From a virus, in IMG/VR virus record IMGVR_UViG_3300049893_000724, positions 62,001-126,000 of that record: a stretch of DNA of 64,000 bases, one strand, 5' to 3'. The notes under the pieces were generated by a model. It had not been told where the DNA came from and did not search any database. It saw only the letters and a program-made list of their open reading frames with translations. The position numbers were made by a program, and so were the translations under genes. This document shows, in pieces, positions 4,394 through 8,506 of this stretch; within the stretch, counting starts at the first letter, position 1; each line of letters starts with the position of its first letter.

Positions 4394-4394
4394 G

Positions 4395-4467
4395 TGCTCC
4401 CTGCGAGGATCGAACTCGCCTATATCCGATTATGAGTCGGGTGCTTTCACCAGATAGCTAAAGGAGC
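4395..4467 (-). tRNA. tRNA with CAT anticodon (Met or lysidine-type Ile)
   Basis: Cloverleaf of 73 bases: acceptor GCTCCTT/AGGGAGC, anticodon loop CTCATAA, T-arm GCGAG-TTCGATC-CTCGC, discriminator A, no encoded CCA. CAT can be elongator Met or, with lysidine at position 34, Ile reading ATA. The GACTCATAATCG stem-loop resembles bacterial tRNA-Ile2, but a tRNA-Ile(TAT) lies next to it, so identity is open. Confidence 0.85.
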
Positions 4468-4471
4468 AAGG

Positions 4472-4543
4472 TAGGACCGCAGAGAATTGAACTCCGTTCA
4501 CACCGTTATAAGCAGTGGGCCTTAACCAATAGGCGACGATCCC
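4472..4543 (-). tRNA. tRNA-Ile(TAT)
   Basis: 72 bases; anticodon stem CACTG/CGGTG with loop CTTATAA gives TAT, which reads ATA. The T-arm CGGAG-TTCAATT-CTCTG is good. The first acceptor pair would be G-U. A TAT isoleucine tRNA is uncommon in bacteria, which usually read ATA with lysidine-CAT. Confidence 0.85.
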
Positions 4544-4551
4544 TTGCTAAA

Positions 4552-4782
4552 TTATGAACCTTCTTCGTGGTCAGTGTGAAGACGTATAAGTTCGTCATCC
4601 ACAACTGAATCCACTGCAAGTTTTATAGTTTCATTATAAGGGACTATTACTGCGTTCCTTTCTCCGTCTGTTATGATAAATGATTCTCCATTCTCAACTC
4701 TTTCTATCAGAGTATCAAAATTTGCTTGAAACTCTTCGACTGTAAATTTTTGGAGGTCCGTAATTTCTGGATACATTTTCAT
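4552..4782 (-). CDS. Phd/YefM-like antitoxin without a toxin partner (76 aa)
   Basis: The core TVEEFQANFDTLIERVENGE followed by SFIITDGERNAVIVPY is the Phd/YefM DNA-binding and dimerisation fold. Such antitoxins bind their own promoter and neutralise a partner toxin. No toxin-sized gene adjoins it: it lies alone between tRNA-Pro and tRNA-Ile(TAT). ATG 4782 is chosen because the frame further upstream runs into the tRNA-Pro gene; ATG 4776 is also possible. An orphan antitoxin in a phage may block host toxin-antitoxin defence, which is inference. Confidence 0.75.
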   Translation of the reverse strand: MKMYPEITDLQKFTVEEFQANFDTLIERVENGESFIITDGERNAVIVPYNETIKLAVDSVVDDELIRLHTDHEEGS

Positions 4783-4799
4783 AAAGTGAAGTTTATGAG

Positions 4800-4873
4800 T
4801 CGGAATGACAGGATTCGAACCTGCGACATCTCGCTCCCAAAGCGAGTGCTCTACCAAACTGAGCTACATTCCG
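4800..4873 (-). tRNA. tRNA-Pro(TGG)
   Basis: 74 bases; acceptor CGGAATG/CATTCCG, anticodon loop TTTGGGA, T-loop TTCGAAT, discriminator A. Preceded by its own promoter at 4886-4914. Confidence 0.93.
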
Positions 4874-4885
4874 TTATCTTTTAGT

Positions 4886-4914
4886 ATAATAGCACTCGGT
4901 CTTTACGCTGTCAA
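4886..4914 (-). promoter_or_regulatory. Sigma-70 promoter for tRNA-Pro
   Basis: Minus strand TTGACA, 17-base spacer, TATTAT, ending about 13 bases before the tRNA-Pro 5' end. Confidence 0.75.
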
Positions 4915-4916
4915 GT

Positions 4917-5033
4917 CTATTCTTTTGTATTATGTATGAAAGCAATTCCCATAATGGGTAGAACAATAATACCAAATCCACAAGCACCTAACCAAATAGG
5001 ACTTGCTGCTAAAACTTCTACTAAGTGCAACAT
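4917..5033 (-). CDS. Single-pass membrane micro-protein (38 aa)
   Basis: Short ORF with one hydrophobic helix (about residues 6-32, including GACGFGIIVLPIMGIAF) and a short charged tail HNTKE. Its ATG shares one base with the stop of the 72-aa gene (TAATG). It is the last gene of the PTOX operon. Size and topology recall single-helix photosystem or cytochrome b6f subunits, but I do not recognise a specific one. Confidence 0.55.
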   Translation of the reverse strand: MLHLVEVLAASPIWLGACGFGIIVLPIMGIAFIHNTKE

Positions 5034-5251
5034 TAGTATCCTCTCCAGGTTTTAAATTCGTGGTAAAAATATTGATCTACTGTATTATCCAGTGGGGCAT
5101 TATCTTCCCTATGTGCCCATTCTACACAAAATTCTACAATACGTCTATCGTGAAGTGAAGTGTGTCCCCACATTCTCACAAATGCTGATGCAGCAAAGTG
5201 GTATCTTTGTTTAGTGTGCGGTTCCATTTCCCTTATAATCTTTGGAGTCAT
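5033..5251 (-). CDS. Hypothetical soluble protein of the PTOX operon (72 aa)
   Basis: No membrane segment; rich in His, Trp and Arg (REMEPHTKQRYHFAASAF, HDRRIVEFCVEWAHRED). The start at 5251 is supported by a good Shine-Dalgarno GGAGG six bases upstream, even though it lies inside the 40-aa ORF. Function not recognised; its place directly after ptox suggests a linked role. Confidence 0.65.
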   Translation of the reverse strand: MTPKIIREMEPHTKQRYHFAASAFVRMWGHTSLHDRRIVEFCVEWAHREDNAPLDNTVDQYFYHEFKTWRGY

Positions 5252-5333
5252 AGTATCCTCCTCGTGTTCCGAAATAGAGTGTTGCTAAAACAAAAGGAAC
5301 TGAAGCAAATAACAATAGTTTTCCCAATAACAT
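5211..5333 (-). CDS. Single-pass membrane micro-protein (40 aa)
   Basis: One N-terminal hydrophobic helix (LLGKLLLFASVPFVLATLYF) then a short polar tail GTRGGYYDSKDYKGNGTAH. Its ATG overlaps the ptox stop (TGATG), and its last 41 bases overlap the start of the 72-aa gene in another frame. Translational coupling to ptox is likely. Could be a small accessory helix for the oxidase; this is inference. Confidence 0.5.
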   Translation of the reverse strand: MLLGKLLLFASVPFVLATLYFGTRGGYYDSKDYKGNGTAH

Positions 5334-5833
5334 CAGACCATCTCCATTGCTCTTGAGAGTTCAATATAATGGTTCATCTCATCCACTGCGATCTCAGCGA
5401 TCTTGGTGTCCTCCTGATGGTCCCACAAGTAGTTGATATAAGTTTCGGTTGCGTGAAACTCAATCCCAGCATTCAAGTGATAAGCAGAAACGGGAGCAAT
5501 AAAATAATAACCCACCAAAATCCAATAATAGATGAGAACCAAATGATAAGCGAAAAAGCGATCAATCCAGCGATCTGCTCCGCCACGATGCTCCATTTCA
5601 ATAAGGTGTTCCGTTTCATTTAAGGTCTGTGCAAAGTGTTCTTTCATCAAATAATAATGAGATAAGTCTCTGAGTCCTAGTGATTCTTTGAGATGAAGCA
5701 CACTTACAAAAGCAAAGTAAGGTGCTCTGGCAATGGTCTCTAAAACCCAGAACCTTTGAATAGGAAAGTCACGATACAGAAAGTCAATGATTGATATCGT
5801 GACTGTTAGTATTGTATCGTTAAACTTTTTCAT
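5333..5833 (-). CDS. ptox: Plastoquinol terminal oxidase (PTOX/AOX family)
   Basis: A di-iron quinol oxidase that passes electrons from plastoquinol to oxygen, giving a pseudo-cyclic water-to-water route at the thylakoid membrane. All AOX-family iron ligands are present: Glu32 in VLETIARAP, Glu73 and His76 in NETEHL, Glu130 in HATETY, and Glu152 and His155 in VDEMNH. Hydrophobic stretches near residues 28-48 and 93-118 fit a monotopic membrane anchor. The 166-aa length matches a compact cyanophage form. PTOX is a known auxiliary gene of cyanophages, thought to relieve over-reduction during infection. The start overlaps the stop of the 29-aa micro-protein (ATGA), and further small membrane genes surround it. 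Confidence 0.92.
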   Translation of the reverse strand: MKKFNDTILTVTISIIDFLYRDFPIQRFWVLETIARAPYFAFVSVLHLKESLGLRDLSHYYLMKEHFAQTLNETEHLIEMEHRGGADRWIDRFFAYHLVLIYYWILVGYYFIAPVSAYHLNAGIEFHATETYINYLWDHQEDTKIAEIAVDEMNHYIELSRAMEMV

Positions 5834-5919
5834 TGTGGATATGCGTGATTAAGTCCCCAGATAATAAAAAGTCCAATCGCACCAAAAAGTGTCATTGCTG
5901 TGTAGATAGTTTTACTCAT
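5830..5919 (-). CDS. Single-pass membrane micro-protein (29 aa)
   Basis: MSKTIYTAMTLFGAIGLFII followed by WGLNHAYPQ: one transmembrane helix and nothing else. The ATG overlaps the stop of the 96-aa gene by 8 bases and its stop overlaps the ptox start by 4 bases, so it is embedded in a coupled chain. The size equals that of PetN or small Psb subunits of cyanobacteria, but the sequence is not one I recognise. Confidence 0.55.
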   Translation of the reverse strand: MSKTIYTAMTLFGAIGLFIIWGLNHAYPQ

Positions 5920-6202
5920 CTTCTTCGTCCTCGTAAGTAGATGGTTCTTCGAATAGTTCGTCTATCTTTTGTTGTAAAACTCTGCGTTGTAGTTGTTCGA
6001 TATCTTCTTCGGTGATTCTTAACACTAGTAACGGGTCTCCTGGTTTAACGTCGTTTAACTCTGGATGTTTTACTTTTGGACTTTTAGAATACCCATATTG
6101 AGCATTCATAATCATCCAACCTTGCACAATCATTGAGAGTGCGATACCCACAAGTACAAACCAAGGAACTAAAAATATTAGTGGAGTGTAATGTTGAGCC
6201 AT
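5912..6202 (-). CDS. Membrane protein with cytoplasmic tail, PTOX operon (96 aa)
   Basis: One strong hydrophobic helix (about residues 7-32, FLVPWFVLVGIALSMIVQGW), then a soluble tail with GYSKSPKVKHPE, GDPLLVLRITEEDI and a very acidic end. The tail could bind a partner or metal; not recognised. It overlaps the 67-aa gene by 25 bases and the 29-aa gene by 8. Confidence 0.65.
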   Translation of the reverse strand: MAQHYTPLIFLVPWFVLVGIALSMIVQGWMIMNAQYGYSKSPKVKHPELNDVKPGDPLLVLRITEEDIEQLQRRVLQQKIDELFEEPSTYEDEEDE

Positions 6203-6381
6203 GGGAACACAGGTGGAATGACCCCTATGAGTCTTAGTAATCCCTCAGCAAATAAAGCAAGAACCACCCAACCGACGCACATACTAATGATAGAAGCATT
6301 ACGGTTGTGTCTTCTGATAGCATCATCGATCATCTCCTGAACTTCAGAACGTGTAATAAACTCTTCTTGTTCGTGCATCAT
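6178..6381 (-). CDS. Membrane protein (67 aa)
   Basis: Acidic amphipathic N-terminus (EEFITRSEVQEMIDDAIRRH), then one hydrophobic segment (about residues 31-58) ending in PWLNITLH. Likely single-pass, tail-anchored. Overlapping starts and stops tie it to the same transcript as ptox. Function not recognised. Confidence 0.6.
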   Translation of the reverse strand: MMHEQEEFITRSEVQEMIDDAIRRHNRNASIISMCVGWVVLALFAEGLLRLIGVIPPVFPWLNITLH

Positions 6382-6527
6382 TTCTCGTCTCCAAGAAATT
6401 TTGCGAGAGGATCTCTTTTGGTTTTTAAAATTTCACACGCTCTATAGTAAAACATATTGTTGGTGTTGCCAGAAGCTTCAAAAGTTGCCTTGATCTTCAC
6501 CCAGTTATCATAGGTGTGTTGATCCAT
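6378..6527 (-). CDS. Hypothetical protein (49 aa), first gene of the PTOX operon
   Basis: Soluble, begins MDQHTYDNWVKIKATFEASG, with a helical, basic C-terminal half. The stop overlaps the start of the 67-aa gene (ATGA). It is preceded by a possible promoter at 6553-6581 with an inverted repeat. Function unknown. Confidence 0.6.
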   Translation of the reverse strand: MDQHTYDNWVKIKATFEASGNTNNMFYYRACEILKTKRDPLAKFLGDEK

Positions 6528-6536
6528 GAGGTTTAT

Positions 6537-6581
6537 ACTTGTGATACTACTATATACTAGTCACAAGTATTTCACAGTCAA
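6537..6581 (-). promoter_or_regulatory. Possible promoter with operator-like inverted repeat, upstream of PTOX operon
   Basis: Minus strand -35 TTGACT (6576-6581); the -10 is unclear (TAGTAT at 16 bases or TATATA at 19). Across the -10 region an 8-base inverted repeat ACTTGTGA/TCACAAGT (6537-6568) could bind a regulator. The rest of 6582-6641 shows no gene. Confidence 0.4.
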
Positions 6582-6641
6582 CATTTTGTGTTCATTACGT
6601 AACACTGTTGAAGAAAATGTTAAATTTGTAACTTATCTAAA

Positions 6642-6726
6642 CGGAAAGGGTGGGATTCGAACCCACGGATGCTTTCACATCGCTAGTTTTCAAGACTAGA
6701 GCCTTCAACCACTCGACCACCTTTCC
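6642..6726 (-). tRNA. tRNA-Ser(TGA)
   Basis: 85 bases with the long variable arm of class II tRNAs; acceptor GGAAAGG/CCTTTCC, anticodon loop CTTGAAA, discriminator G. Confidence 0.95.
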
Positions 6727-6737
6727 AGTGGGGAGGT

Positions 6738-6989
6738 TCAGCGAACCTCAAAGTCCAAACGCTTTACTTTGCGTTGGCGTCTTGCCTCTTGCCAGGCAAT
6801 ATCTTGTGAAGAGAGAACATTGGTTTTTTGTTCTTTCTGAATAGAGTTTAGCATTACAACTCGTGATAAGTCAACTGCGGAAATCTTATCACCACGAATT
6901 GTTGCCATATTTGGACAACCACAAGTGATTGTTTTCGTTGGGTGTCCAGTAAGTTCTTTATTGCAATCTTTGCATCTTATTGAAATCAT
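6738..6989 (-). CDS. Zinc-ribbon-like small protein (83 aa)
   Basis: The N-terminus CKDCNKELTGHPTKTITCGC has two cysteine pairs (C-x2-C, C-x-C) that would hold one zinc. It is followed by a helical basic C-terminus (WQEARRQRKVKRLDF). Nucleic-acid or protein binding is likely. No closer family recognised. It lies between Dps-like and tRNA-Ser genes. Confidence 0.65.
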   Translation of the reverse strand: MISIRCKDCNKELTGHPTKTITCGCPNMATIRGDKISAVDLSRVVMLNSIQKEQKTNVLSSQDIAWQEARRQRKVKRLDFEVR

Positions 6990-7004
6990 TGTTCTTCATC
7001 CTAC

Positions 7005-7439
7005 TCATTGTAAATGAGATCTTAACTGCCAAACAAATTTACCGTGAGACTCCATTAAATCTTGAACTAGATTTGCAGTTGCGTATTGCTTTTGCCCTTC
7101 AGACTCTTCTGAAATCTCCTGCATTAGTTCACAAAACTTTTCGTTGTTCTCAAGCAGTTCCTGAAGCATTTCTTTTGCTCCTGTTGAACTTGCTGCTTCT
7201 TTAATCTGAGTAACCTCAAGCATTCTTGAAAGAGAACTGAGAGGTTTTACATTCAGATAACGCATATGTTCTGAGAGACGATCAATCTCTTCAAACATAG
7301 TTTCGTACTGTCCACCAAAGAGTTGATGAAGTTGAGTGAAATCTTCACCAACTACATTCCAATGAAATGCCCAAGTTTTATGAAACAAAACAAAAAGTGA
7401 TGACTGAGCATCACTCAAGAGTTTAAATAGTTTTTCCAT
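7005..7439 (-). CDS. Dps-like ferritin-fold protein (144 aa)
   Basis: The segment FHKTWAFHWNVVGEDFTQLH plus QYETMFEEIDRLSEHMRYL matches the Dps/ferritin signature, with the HxxW, H, D and E residues of the ferroxidase site between subunits. Dps proteins form 12-mers that oxidise iron with peroxide and protect DNA. The length is normal. It has its own late promoter (GATAAATA, 7457-7464) about 18 bases upstream, so it is expressed late; a role in protecting phage DNA or storing iron is inferred. Confidence 0.8.
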   Translation of the reverse strand: MEKLFKLLSDAQSSLFVLFHKTWAFHWNVVGEDFTQLHQLFGGQYETMFEEIDRLSEHMRYLNVKPLSSLSRMLEVTQIKEAASSTGAKEMLQELLENNEKFCELMQEISEESEGQKQYATANLVQDLMESHGKFVWQLRSHLQ

Positions 7440-7456
7440 TATACTCTTTTTTTAAA

Positions 7457-7464
7457 TATTTATC
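7457..7464 (-). promoter_or_regulatory. Late promoter (GATAAATA) for the Dps-like gene
   Basis: T4-type late octamer on the minus strand, between tRNA-Val and the Dps-like start codon at 7439. Confidence 0.65.
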
Positions 7465-7467
7465 AAG

Positions 7468-7539
7468 TGGGCGATGACGGATTCGAACCGCCGACCAATT
7501 GCGTGTAAAGCAACTGCGCTACCGCTGCGCTAATCGCCC
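7468..7539 (-). tRNA. tRNA-Val(TAC)
   Basis: 72 bases; acceptor GGGCGAT/ATCGCCC, anticodon loop TTTACAC, T-loop TTCGAAT, discriminator A. Confidence 0.95.
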
Positions 7540-7575
7540 GTGTTATGTTTCCAGTAGCCACTCTTATCTCCCATA

Positions 7576-7670
7576 AGGAAGATGTAGGCATCGAACCTAC
7601 AAAGGACAGTCTCTAACGAAACCGCTGGGAATTCCACCCAGAACATAGTTGGAAGAACCAAAGTACTTCC
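7576..7670 (-). pseudogene. Degenerate class II tRNA-like element
   Basis: A perfect T-arm (GTAGG-TTCGATG-CCTAC), a 3' strand that pairs with GGAAG at 7666-7670, and a variable-arm-like hairpin (GTTTC-GTTA-GAGAC). A stem CTGGG/CCCAG is closed by a loop TGGAATT that lacks the invariant T33, and the D-arm is absent. Length 95. It looks like a decayed Ser/Leu/Tyr-type tRNA or a tRNA-mimic between tRNA-Asn and tRNA-Val. Confidence 0.45.
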
Positions 7671-7672
7671 AA

Positions 7673-7744
7673 CTCCCCCTCCTGGATTCGAACCAGGGAC
7701 CAAATGATTAACAGTCATCTGCGCTACCGCTGCGCCAAGGAGGA
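7673..7744 (-). tRNA. tRNA-Asn(GTT)
   Basis: 72 bases; acceptor TCCTCCT/AGGGGGA, anticodon loop CTGTTAA, T-arm CCTGG-TTCGAAT-CCAGG, discriminator G. Confidence 0.94.
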
Positions 7745-7748
7745 ATGA

Positions 7749-7835
7749 GGAGAAGGAGTGCTCTTGGGCGAACCCGCAGGATCACTTCTCCTATTGGCGT
7801 CTTTCTAGGCTATCTGCCTAGCGACTACCAAGAGC
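7749..7835 (-). ncRNA. Structured RNA spacer between tRNA-Gly and tRNA-Asn
   Basis: About 80 bases right after tRNA-Gly that fold strongly. An 8-base stem GCTCTTGG/CCAAGAGC (7760-7835) encloses a hairpin CTAGGC/GCCTAG and a GGG-TTCG-CCC hairpin. An alternative long hairpin pairs GGAGAAG with CTTCTCC (7749-7791). The first stem shares three bases with the tRNA-Gly 3' end, so the two folds compete. It may be a processing signal or a stable RNA like T4 RNAs C and D; function unknown. Confidence 0.45.
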
Positions 7836-7903
7836 GGGTAACCGGGTTCGAACCGGTGATTCCAACTTGGAAGGATGGCGTGTTACCGCTACACCATACC
7901 CGC
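7833..7903 (-). tRNA. tRNA-Gly(TCC)
   Basis: 71 bases; acceptor GCGGGTA/TACCCGC, anticodon loop CTTCCAA, T-arm ACCGG-TTCGAAC-CCGGT, discriminator T. Confidence 0.95.
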
Positions 7904-7907
7904 AGGT

Positions 7908-7945
7908 GAGAAACATAGAGGGGTGGTGGTGTCTCTACGTTTCTC
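7908..7945 (-). other. Hairpin in leader of tRNA-Gly
   Basis: A 13-base inverted repeat (7908-7920 with 7933-7945) around a 12-base loop. The single non-Watson-Crick pair is A-C on plus but G-U on minus, so it fits a minus-strand RNA. It lies just after the start expected from the promoter at 7954-7982. Confidence 0.5.
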
Positions 7946-7953
7946 ATATGACA

Positions 7954-7982
7954 ATTATAAGGTGTGGATTTATAATTGTCAA
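7954..7982 (-). promoter_or_regulatory. Consensus sigma-70 promoter for tRNA-Gly, near-symmetric
   Basis: Minus strand TTGACA, 17 bases, TATAAT, both boxes perfect. The whole promoter is an 11-base inverted repeat (7950-7980), so the plus strand also carries ATGACA, 17 bases, TATAAT. Confidence 0.75.
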
Positions 7983-7983
7983 G

Positions 7984-8065
7984 TGTCGATGAAAGGACTT
8001 GAACCTTCACAGAATACTCTACTGGAACCTAAACCCAGCGCGTCTACCAATTCCGCCACATCGAC
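7984..8065 (-). tRNA. tRNA-Leu(TAG)
   Basis: 82 bases with a long variable arm; acceptor GTCGATG/CATCGAC, anticodon loop TTTAGGT, T-loop TTCAAGT, discriminator A. Its first base is also the last base of the HNH gene stop codon. Confidence 0.94.
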
Positions 8066-8367
8066 TAATTACGAAGTTCTACGTGAACCTCACGATGACA
8101 GTTAGCACAAAGTATAGAACACTTGTCTAACTCTGCTTGTATTTTTTTCCAACTCCAAAGTCGCATCTTAGTCCAAGATGCTTCTTTTTCTATTGGATTA
8201 AGATGGTGAAATTCTAAAACATCTGGATACTTATCATATCCACATCTTTCACATTTTCCACCTTTGTATTCTACGGCATCAAGTTTTCTTTGACGCCATC
8301 TTTGAATACAATACTGATTGAAGGCAGATTTCTCTTCCTCCGTCATCAGTTTATATGGTTTACTCAT
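8065..8367 (-). CDS. HNH homing-type endonuclease (100 aa)
   Basis: A compact HNH nuclease: a zinc pair CERCGYDKYPDVLEFHHLNP near residues 39-58 and a second pair CSILCANCHREVH near the C-terminus form the beta-beta-metal site (HH, N, H). The N-terminal basic helices (QRWRQRKLD) probably bind DNA. It stands alone between tRNA-Arg and tRNA-Leu with its own TATAAATA late promoter, as freestanding homing endonucleases of T4-like phages do. The target site is not visible. Confidence 0.85.
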   Translation of the reverse strand: MSKPYKLMTEEEKSAFNQYCIQRWRQRKLDAVEYKGGKCERCGYDKYPDVLEFHHLNPIEKEASWTKMRLWSWKKIQAELDKCSILCANCHREVHVELRN

Positions 8368-8392
8368 TAGATTAGAATGTATAAGTCTAATC

Positions 8393-8400
8393 TATTTATA
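8393..8400 (-). promoter_or_regulatory. Late promoter (TATAAATA) for the HNH gene
   Basis: Perfect T4 late octamer 26 bases upstream of the HNH start codon, between it and tRNA-Arg. Confidence 0.75.
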
Positions 8401-8407
8401 AACCAAA

Positions 8408-8480
8408 CAGGCACGGAGAGGGTCGAACTCCCAATCGACATCTTAGAAGGATGCTGCATTATCCATTATGCTACGTGCCC
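8408..8480 (-). tRNA. tRNA-Arg(TCT)
   Basis: 73 bases; anticodon loop CTTCTAA, T-arm GGGAG-TTCGACC-CTCTC, acceptor GGGCACG/CGTGCCT with a terminal G-U, discriminator G. Confidence 0.92.
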
Positions 8481-8506
8481 AAAAGACCTCCTGGTTTGTG
8501 CATCGT

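Follow-up and report, generated by a model that had tools for sequence, protein, structure and literature searches.

The plastoquinol terminal oxidase PTOX is well known from cyanophages, and it has long been asked how these viruses keep replication supplied with power when carbon fixation is reduced. In cyanobacteria, electrons are passed from ferredoxin to plastoquinone, with proton pumping, by NDH-1L (PMC6992706), whose specific module comprises NdhP, NdhQ, NdhD1 and NdhF1 (PMC7021789). NdhP and NdhQ lie on the two opposite sides of NdhD, NDH-1L falls apart when either of them is deleted (PMC6992706) and both contact NdhD1/NdhF1 in the solved structures (PMC6992706, PMC7021789); NdhP is exclusive to NDH-1L and essential for it in Thermosynechococcus (PMC4131877). 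For infected cells, host data from a transcriptome study led to a model with NDH cycling and with PTOX as acceptor (PMC5082946), and ndhI, ndhD and ndhP have been suggested in cyanophages from ocean metagenomes (as cited in PMC3877843, PMC10452541). Here, a gene cluster is described in a window of 64,000 nucleotides (nt; bases 62001-126000 of the 184,459-base IMG/VR virus record IMGVR_UViG_3300049893_000724; all positions below are those of the window), in which ptox lies between genes for putative phage NdhQ and NdhP. It shares with the metagenome reports the phage-borne NDH-1 subunits and the cyclic-flow hypothesis, whereas ndhQ is not mentioned among those genes and the cassette here joins the NDH-1L-stabilising pair to ptox. 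An auxiliary metabolic cassette is an already known kind of system; what is new here is a possibly unreported phage ndhQ and an unexplained companion, a 38-amino-acid (aa) protein (p38). At the DNA level, the annotated phages nearest to it are Synechococcus myoviruses, some of them freshwater (DSL-LC03 and DSL-LC02 from Dishui Lake, S-SRM01 from Serangoon Reservoir), and it is reasonably probable, judging the whole explanation jointly, that the cluster serves a cyanomyovirus as an electron-flow cassette.

The cluster consists of eight unbroken open reading frames (ORFs), all on the minus strand and running from 6527 down to 4917, of 49, 67, 96, 29, 166 (PTOX), 40, 72 and 38 aa. Neighbours overlap at every junction, via ATGA (49/67 and 29/PTOX), TGATG (PTOX/40) or TAATG (72/38), or by longer stretches of 25 nt (67/96), 8 nt (96/29) and 41 nt (40/72). 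A single hydrophobic helix is present in five of the ORFs, with best 19-residue Kyte-Doolittle means of 2.19 (67 aa), 2.69 (96 aa), 1.88 (29 aa), 2.04 (40 aa) and 2.35 (38 aa), while the corresponding values of the soluble 49- and 72-aa proteins are -0.24 and -0.08. ORF coordinates and hydropathy thus bear out a first-pass annotation of the window, which had placed one-helix ORFs of 29, 38, 40, 67 and 96 codons around PTOX and linked them, together with two small soluble genes, by ATGA, TGATG and TAATG overlaps; the longer overlaps come in addition.

The 40-aa protein (5211-5333) is, as judged from sequence, a phage NdhP, a subunit of NDH-1L. When compared with all PDB chains by phmmer, it retrieved NdhP of cyanobacterial NDH-1 (6khi chain P, E=1.4e-8; 6hum chain P, E=1.3e-7), and it has the length of ~40-44 aa, the single helix and the C-terminal FGTRxGYYDxxxYxGNGTAH of that subunit. 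Its family, phrog_2173, is labelled 'unknown function'; relatives were found in 384 phage records, mostly unnamed among the matches listed, with one record that says NdhP.

The 29-aa protein (5830-5919) had no match in Pfam, NCBIfam or PHROGs, and its single sequence found no PDB match by phmmer; the family profile alone succeeded. Built from 20 diverse members and searched against 177,635 PDB sequences, the profile matched three distinct NdhQ chains, which were its sole matches at E<=10 and were weak singly (E 0.017, 0.06 and 0.97). Over 291 cyanobacterial genomes, its best matches (to 3.5e-9) fell in genomes of 1.7-3.7 Mb and were ORFs that end in GGIGVFIVWGLANAYP or a similar sequence and span ~35-40 aa when counted from the likely start; larger cyanobacterial genomes gave 45-46-aa proteins of the form MSDLNRGIMKFxGADSP...WALxxAY, that is, classical NdhQ. 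Profile-profile comparison (hhalign) of the phage family gave 98.5% (E=2e-15) against the short picocyanobacterial NdhQ and 96.3% against the classical form, with 97.7% between the short and classical forms, while the 38-aa family, taken as control, gave 2.6% against short-form NdhQ. The short-form profile itself matches PDB NdhQ at 1e-4. In the family alignment, W, G, L and Y never vary, and the same holds for 80 distinct viral sequences (the latter anchored on a W[GA]LxxAY match); the protein is a single helix ending W[GA]LxxAY at the C-terminus, as in NdhQ. From these four independent comparisons and the negative control, the 29-aa protein is identified by its sequence relationships as phage NdhQ.

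In phage NdhQ, the helix comes right at the start and the N-terminus is shorter than in the host forms encountered. The classical N-terminal segment RGIMKFxGADSP is absent from it, but picocyanobacterial NdhQ is likewise without RGIMKF, thus this segment does not define the family. Host NdhQ gave no tblastn match in phages, perhaps owing to the low-complexity filter. PetN, raised as a candidate by a WGxN likeness, was rejected because the profile found no PetN match. In some picocyanobacterial genomes (L192, L202 and L206; G269, G204 and G291), a second NdhQ-like small ORF, for example MARLLQLLQGSSNNADLAAWTAVIFASITALVIWGLLNAYPNLL, was seen beside the usual 39-aa NdhQ.

A phage NdhQ was not found reported in a literature search, in which subscription papers and preprints are poorly covered, so that an earlier mention is possible; 'NdhQ' and 'phage' came together in one paper, with NdhQ occurring once, consistent with a cited title. 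Phage genes of this size are often unannotated (in gaps, without PHROG), and the photosynthetic repertoire of phages is thus under-counted; in marine isolates, the place of ndhQ, near petE, gnd or talC, is mostly shown as a gap without annotation or as an unnamed ORF.

Since the 40-aa protein is identified as NdhP and the 29-aa protein as NdhQ, two of the five membrane micro-proteins are assigned to NDH-1L. The first-pass annotation had been unable to name the set of micro-proteins; that no longer applies to these two. The likeness to small photosystem or b6f subunits that it had seen did not hold up: although chains of such subunits are available in the PDB, the 29-aa profile leads to NdhQ only, the 40-aa protein to NdhP, the 38-aa profile to no PDB match at E<=10 and the 96-aa profile to insignificant PsbE matches only (E ~0.4). 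With cyanobacterial NDH-1L (PDB 6khi, 6l7o, 6nby and 6hum), the phage NdhP and NdhQ have in common the sequence family, the single helix and the conserved C-termini; they differ in the shorter N-terminus of NdhQ and in that both genes lie in one overlapping ptox cluster with no core ndh gene detected.

The 166-aa protein (5333-5833) is predicted to be a plastoquinol terminal oxidase. It is full length for a phage PTOX, carries the Pfam AOX domain (E=4.9e-13) and belongs to phrog_4235 (E=3.4e-76). E32, E73, H76, E125, E152 and H155 (four Glu, two His) are invariant; from known AOX motifs we take them to be the di-iron ligands. The profile had no match among PDB sequences at E<=0.01, and AOX was recovered by fold search: with an AlphaFold model of modest confidence (pLDDT 64), the best 13 PDB fold matches were all trypanosome AOX, with TM ~0.73 for most. 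The locus resembles cyanophage PTOX and the electron-transport auxiliary genes petE, petF, psbA, psbD and hli in PTOX family, in the intact expected di-iron ligands and in phage host group. It differs from the marine cyanophage isolates examined in that ptox overlaps both ndhQ and ndhP here, while gene order is looser there.

Scanning IMG/VR with PTOX produced 80 loci with PTOX identities of 83-97%; some of the contigs are near-identical, thus the locus counts are not independent events. The same gene order was found in ~50 of the 80, often with identical overlaps, which answers the question of whether the micro-ORFs and their junctions recur next to ptox elsewhere. Overlaps of 1 nt were found between PTOX and the 40-aa gene in 44/52 loci and between the 72- and 38-aa genes in 41/48, an overlap of 41 nt between the 40- and 72-aa genes in all 43/43 loci where the pair is adjacent, one of 8 nt between the 96- and 29-aa genes in 37/55, and one of 4 nt between the 29-aa gene and PTOX in 20/63, most of the others having genes inserted between. 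Pooled dN/dS, for which a value near 1 had been named as refutation, was well below 1 for most of the ORFs: 0.075 (49 aa), 0.21 (67 aa), 0.14 (96 aa), 0.10 (PTOX), 0.20 (40 aa), 0.094 (72 aa) and 0.16 (38 aa). For the 29-aa ORF it was 0.63, made up of 0.22 over the eight C-terminal WGLxxAYP codons and 0.75 for the helix, in which one hydrophobic residue readily replaces another. The recurrent order and overlaps, with mostly low dN/dS, establish the eight ORFs as real genes.

Relatives generally follow the order p49-p67-(p59)-p96 or its 37-aa tail-ndhQ-[talC zwf gnd p55]-ptox-ndhP-p72-p38, with the genes in square brackets present or absent. The cyanophage pentose-phosphate cassette talC-zwf-gnd is found between ndhQ and ptox or beside ndhP in relatives, whereas these genes were not detected in the genome to which the window belongs. 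A second viral scan, with the NdhQ profile, gave 449 stretches. Among the loci fetched, which had not been chosen for ptox, 33 have their 3-kb flanks in full, and each of these 33 has one or more of NdhP (19 loci), p38 (24), PTOX (7) and the pentose-phosphate genes (gnd in 16). On these neighbour counts, ndhQ groups with ndhP, p38 and the pentose-phosphate genes, and ptox is a frequent but non-obligatory member.

These distributions bear on two other explanations. The cluster could be a hotspot of unrelated small and auxiliary metabolic genes beside tRNAs, where ndhQ, ptox and ndhP are kept together for space saving and not for joint action; its place within a tRNA array (a typical variable phage region), the mixing of soluble ORFs of no assigned function with metabolic genes, and the insertion of gnd, zwf, talC, a 200-aa protein and others in different relatives would all fit. 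Yet the association of NdhQ, NdhP and the 38-aa protein persists in marine and apparently freshwater phages despite different surroundings, and the NDH-1 subunits in question form exactly the pair that is specific to NDH-1L; we regard this explanation as unlikely. Much further down in probability, and hardly to be expected, is a dedicated membrane complex of the micro-proteins with PTOX, in which they would serve as anchor, activator or valve. The tight overlap of ptox with the 29- and 40-aa genes speaks for it, but the contacts of NdhQ and NdhP are known to be NdhD1/NdhF1 (PMC6992706, PMC7021789), PTOX often occurs without the cluster (PTOX-fetched loci L010-L015 and L074-L084), and NdhP and NdhQ also occur without PTOX. 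The first-pass suggestion of a phage-encoded thylakoid electron-valve complex is therefore retained at the level of the pathway (NDH-1L tuning plus PTOX), and a physical complex of PTOX with micro-proteins is unsupported.

The neighbours of ptox being putative NdhQ and NdhP, both NDH-1L-specific and stability-critical, PTOX (plastoquinol exit) appears to sit between stabilisers of ferredoxin-to-plastoquinone entry, and this bracketing suggests that the virus influences both electron entry and electron exit in the photosynthetic membrane. Genes for petF, psbA, psbD and hli are present in the same phage genome, where a search for gnd, zwf, talC and petE came back empty; nor was any NdhB/D/F-type or NdhI-type match detected there, thus the host complex would be the target. 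The best explanation, which we hold with some reserve to be the probable one, is that phage NdhQ and NdhP keep or bias host NDH-1 as NDH-1L while PTOX drains surplus plastoquinol. NdhQ, PTOX and NdhP would be made together from overlapping, probably translationally coupled genes; phage NdhP and NdhQ would be inserted into host NDH-1L, where they would keep the distal arm of NdhD1/NdhF1 attached to NDH-1 and thereby give the complex its cyclic-flow/respiratory form; NDH-1 would be kept as NDH-1L or perhaps shifted toward it; ferredoxin electrons would re-enter the plastoquinone pool with proton pumping, yielding ATP without NADPH; and PTOX, presumably coupled to NDH-1L, would vent excess plastoquinol to oxygen. 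Of these steps, the present analysis contributes the gene identities, the conserved order and overlaps, purifying selection, the presence of petF, psbA, psbD and hli and the lack of detectable core ndh genes; the NDH-1L specificity of NdhP and NdhQ, and the need of each for stability, come from the literature; and expression in infection, incorporation and the effect on flux are what we infer. The cassette, as two stabilisers of the cyclic form of NDH-1 with an oxidase between them, would give a genetic unit to the infection model, in which an equivalent route for the electrons had been put forward independently (PMC5082946).

Several points weigh against this explanation. Its support comes from genes and sequence comparison, from which expression is presumed. 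The host owns ndhP and ndhQ, thus a benefit to the phage depends on their loss or limitation in infection. PTOX is merely a frequent neighbour of ndhQ (7/33 NdhQ-fetched loci, versus 19/33 for NdhP), NdhP occurs without adjoining PTOX in many marine phages, and the phage NdhQ helix is weakly constrained, as its dN/dS indicates. Moreover, because the N-terminal stromal segment of host NdhQ is missing, phage NdhQ may not fully substitute for it. That shortened N-terminus, together with the finding that phages encode these two small subunits only, with no core subunit detected in this genome, could also be read in the opposite sense: truncated phage NdhQ and NdhP might act as decoys or inhibitors that take the place of the host subunits, NDH-1L being weakened or altered as a result and electrons leaving via PTOX instead of cycling. 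However, NdhP is conserved at full length including its C-terminal motif and is under purifying selection, the conserved C-terminal end of NdhQ is retained, and the infection model predicts that NDH cycling increases rather than decreases (PMC5082946); displacement of this kind is quite improbable, and retention of NDH-1L remains the preferred explanation.

The last gene of the cluster encodes the 38-aa single-helix protein (4917-5033). Its family, phrog_1184, has two forms, one of 38-41 aa and one of 49-50 aa with a WQHWAPF tail, and occurs in at least 288 phage records; in the isolates of this family that were fetched, NdhP lay within ~2 kb in 10/10. No credible host relative was found in 121 picocyanobacterial genomes: weak partial matches in 10 of them (best E=0.005, with internal stops) were judged chance, and a host origin was set aside. 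Identities as PsaI or PetG/PetM were rejected on the empty PDB profile search, and that of an NdhQ paralogue on the 2.6% noted above. By association, p38 probably belongs to the same NDH-1L module and is the best candidate for a phage-specific NDH-1L partner. A bolder and tentative possibility, which we consider rather doubtful, is that phrog_1184 is a phage-invented third small NDH-1L subunit, with host NDH-1 remodelled to a virus-specific form (NdhP, NdhQ and p38) that is joined here to PTOX.

The 96-aa protein (5912-6202) consists of an N-terminal helix and a long acidic soluble tail. Against PF11189 (DUF2973) it scored 18.5 bits, below the cut-off of 22.2, and its relatives score lower; against host DUF2973, a domain near-universal in picocyanobacteria (55/61 genomes), hhalign gave 78.7% (E=1.7e-5) via the helix and an HPEL...LLxVR motif. 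The protein thus resembles cyanobacterial DUF2973 but, the Pfam cut-off having been missed, is not classed as a member. In most relatives (for example L066, 3407-3696), two genes stand in its place, for a 59-aa membrane protein and a 37-aa protein of the form TEEDLxELQxRVxQQKxxELFEEPSTYEDE; the 96-aa gene looks like a fusion of the two, or the pair like its split.

The 67-aa protein (6178-6381; phrog_1096, E=1.8e-39) has no PDB relative at a meaningful E-value. Relatives of it were seen in 2/61 picocyanobacterial genomes at E ~1e-12 (L349 1498-1674 in G140 and L350 1492-1662 in G110), and members of the family have possibly been exchanged between phage and host. The soluble 49-aa ORF (6378-6527) is the first cluster gene and stands at the cluster head in 57 loci, and the soluble 72-aa ORF (5033-5251) belongs to phrog_593 (E=1.3e-14).

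The cluster is flanked by tRNA-Ser (6641-6727) and tRNA-Pro (4799-4873) and lies inside an array at 4394-8481, on the minus strand, of nine tRNA genes (Met, Ile, Pro, Ser, Val, Asn, Gly, Leu and Arg) interspersed with small ORFs. By consensus matches only, weak sigma-70-like sites precede the cluster and a better one lies just past it. Minus-strand ORFs in alternative frames, of 48 aa inside ptox (5473-5619) and ~30 aa inside the 67-aa gene (6234-6326), are membrane-like and recur in relatives, which main-frame conservation may explain. Beside tRNA-Pro, a minus-strand ORF (4552-4857) lies in a region matching 'prevent host death protein' or 'Phd-like antitoxin' annotations in other cyanophages. 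At 7005-7439, also on the minus strand, a 144-aa ORF (HWNVVGEDFTQLHQLFGGQYE) has a Dps-type look by eye, and S-SRM01 carries an annotated Dps-like gene near its own version of the cluster.

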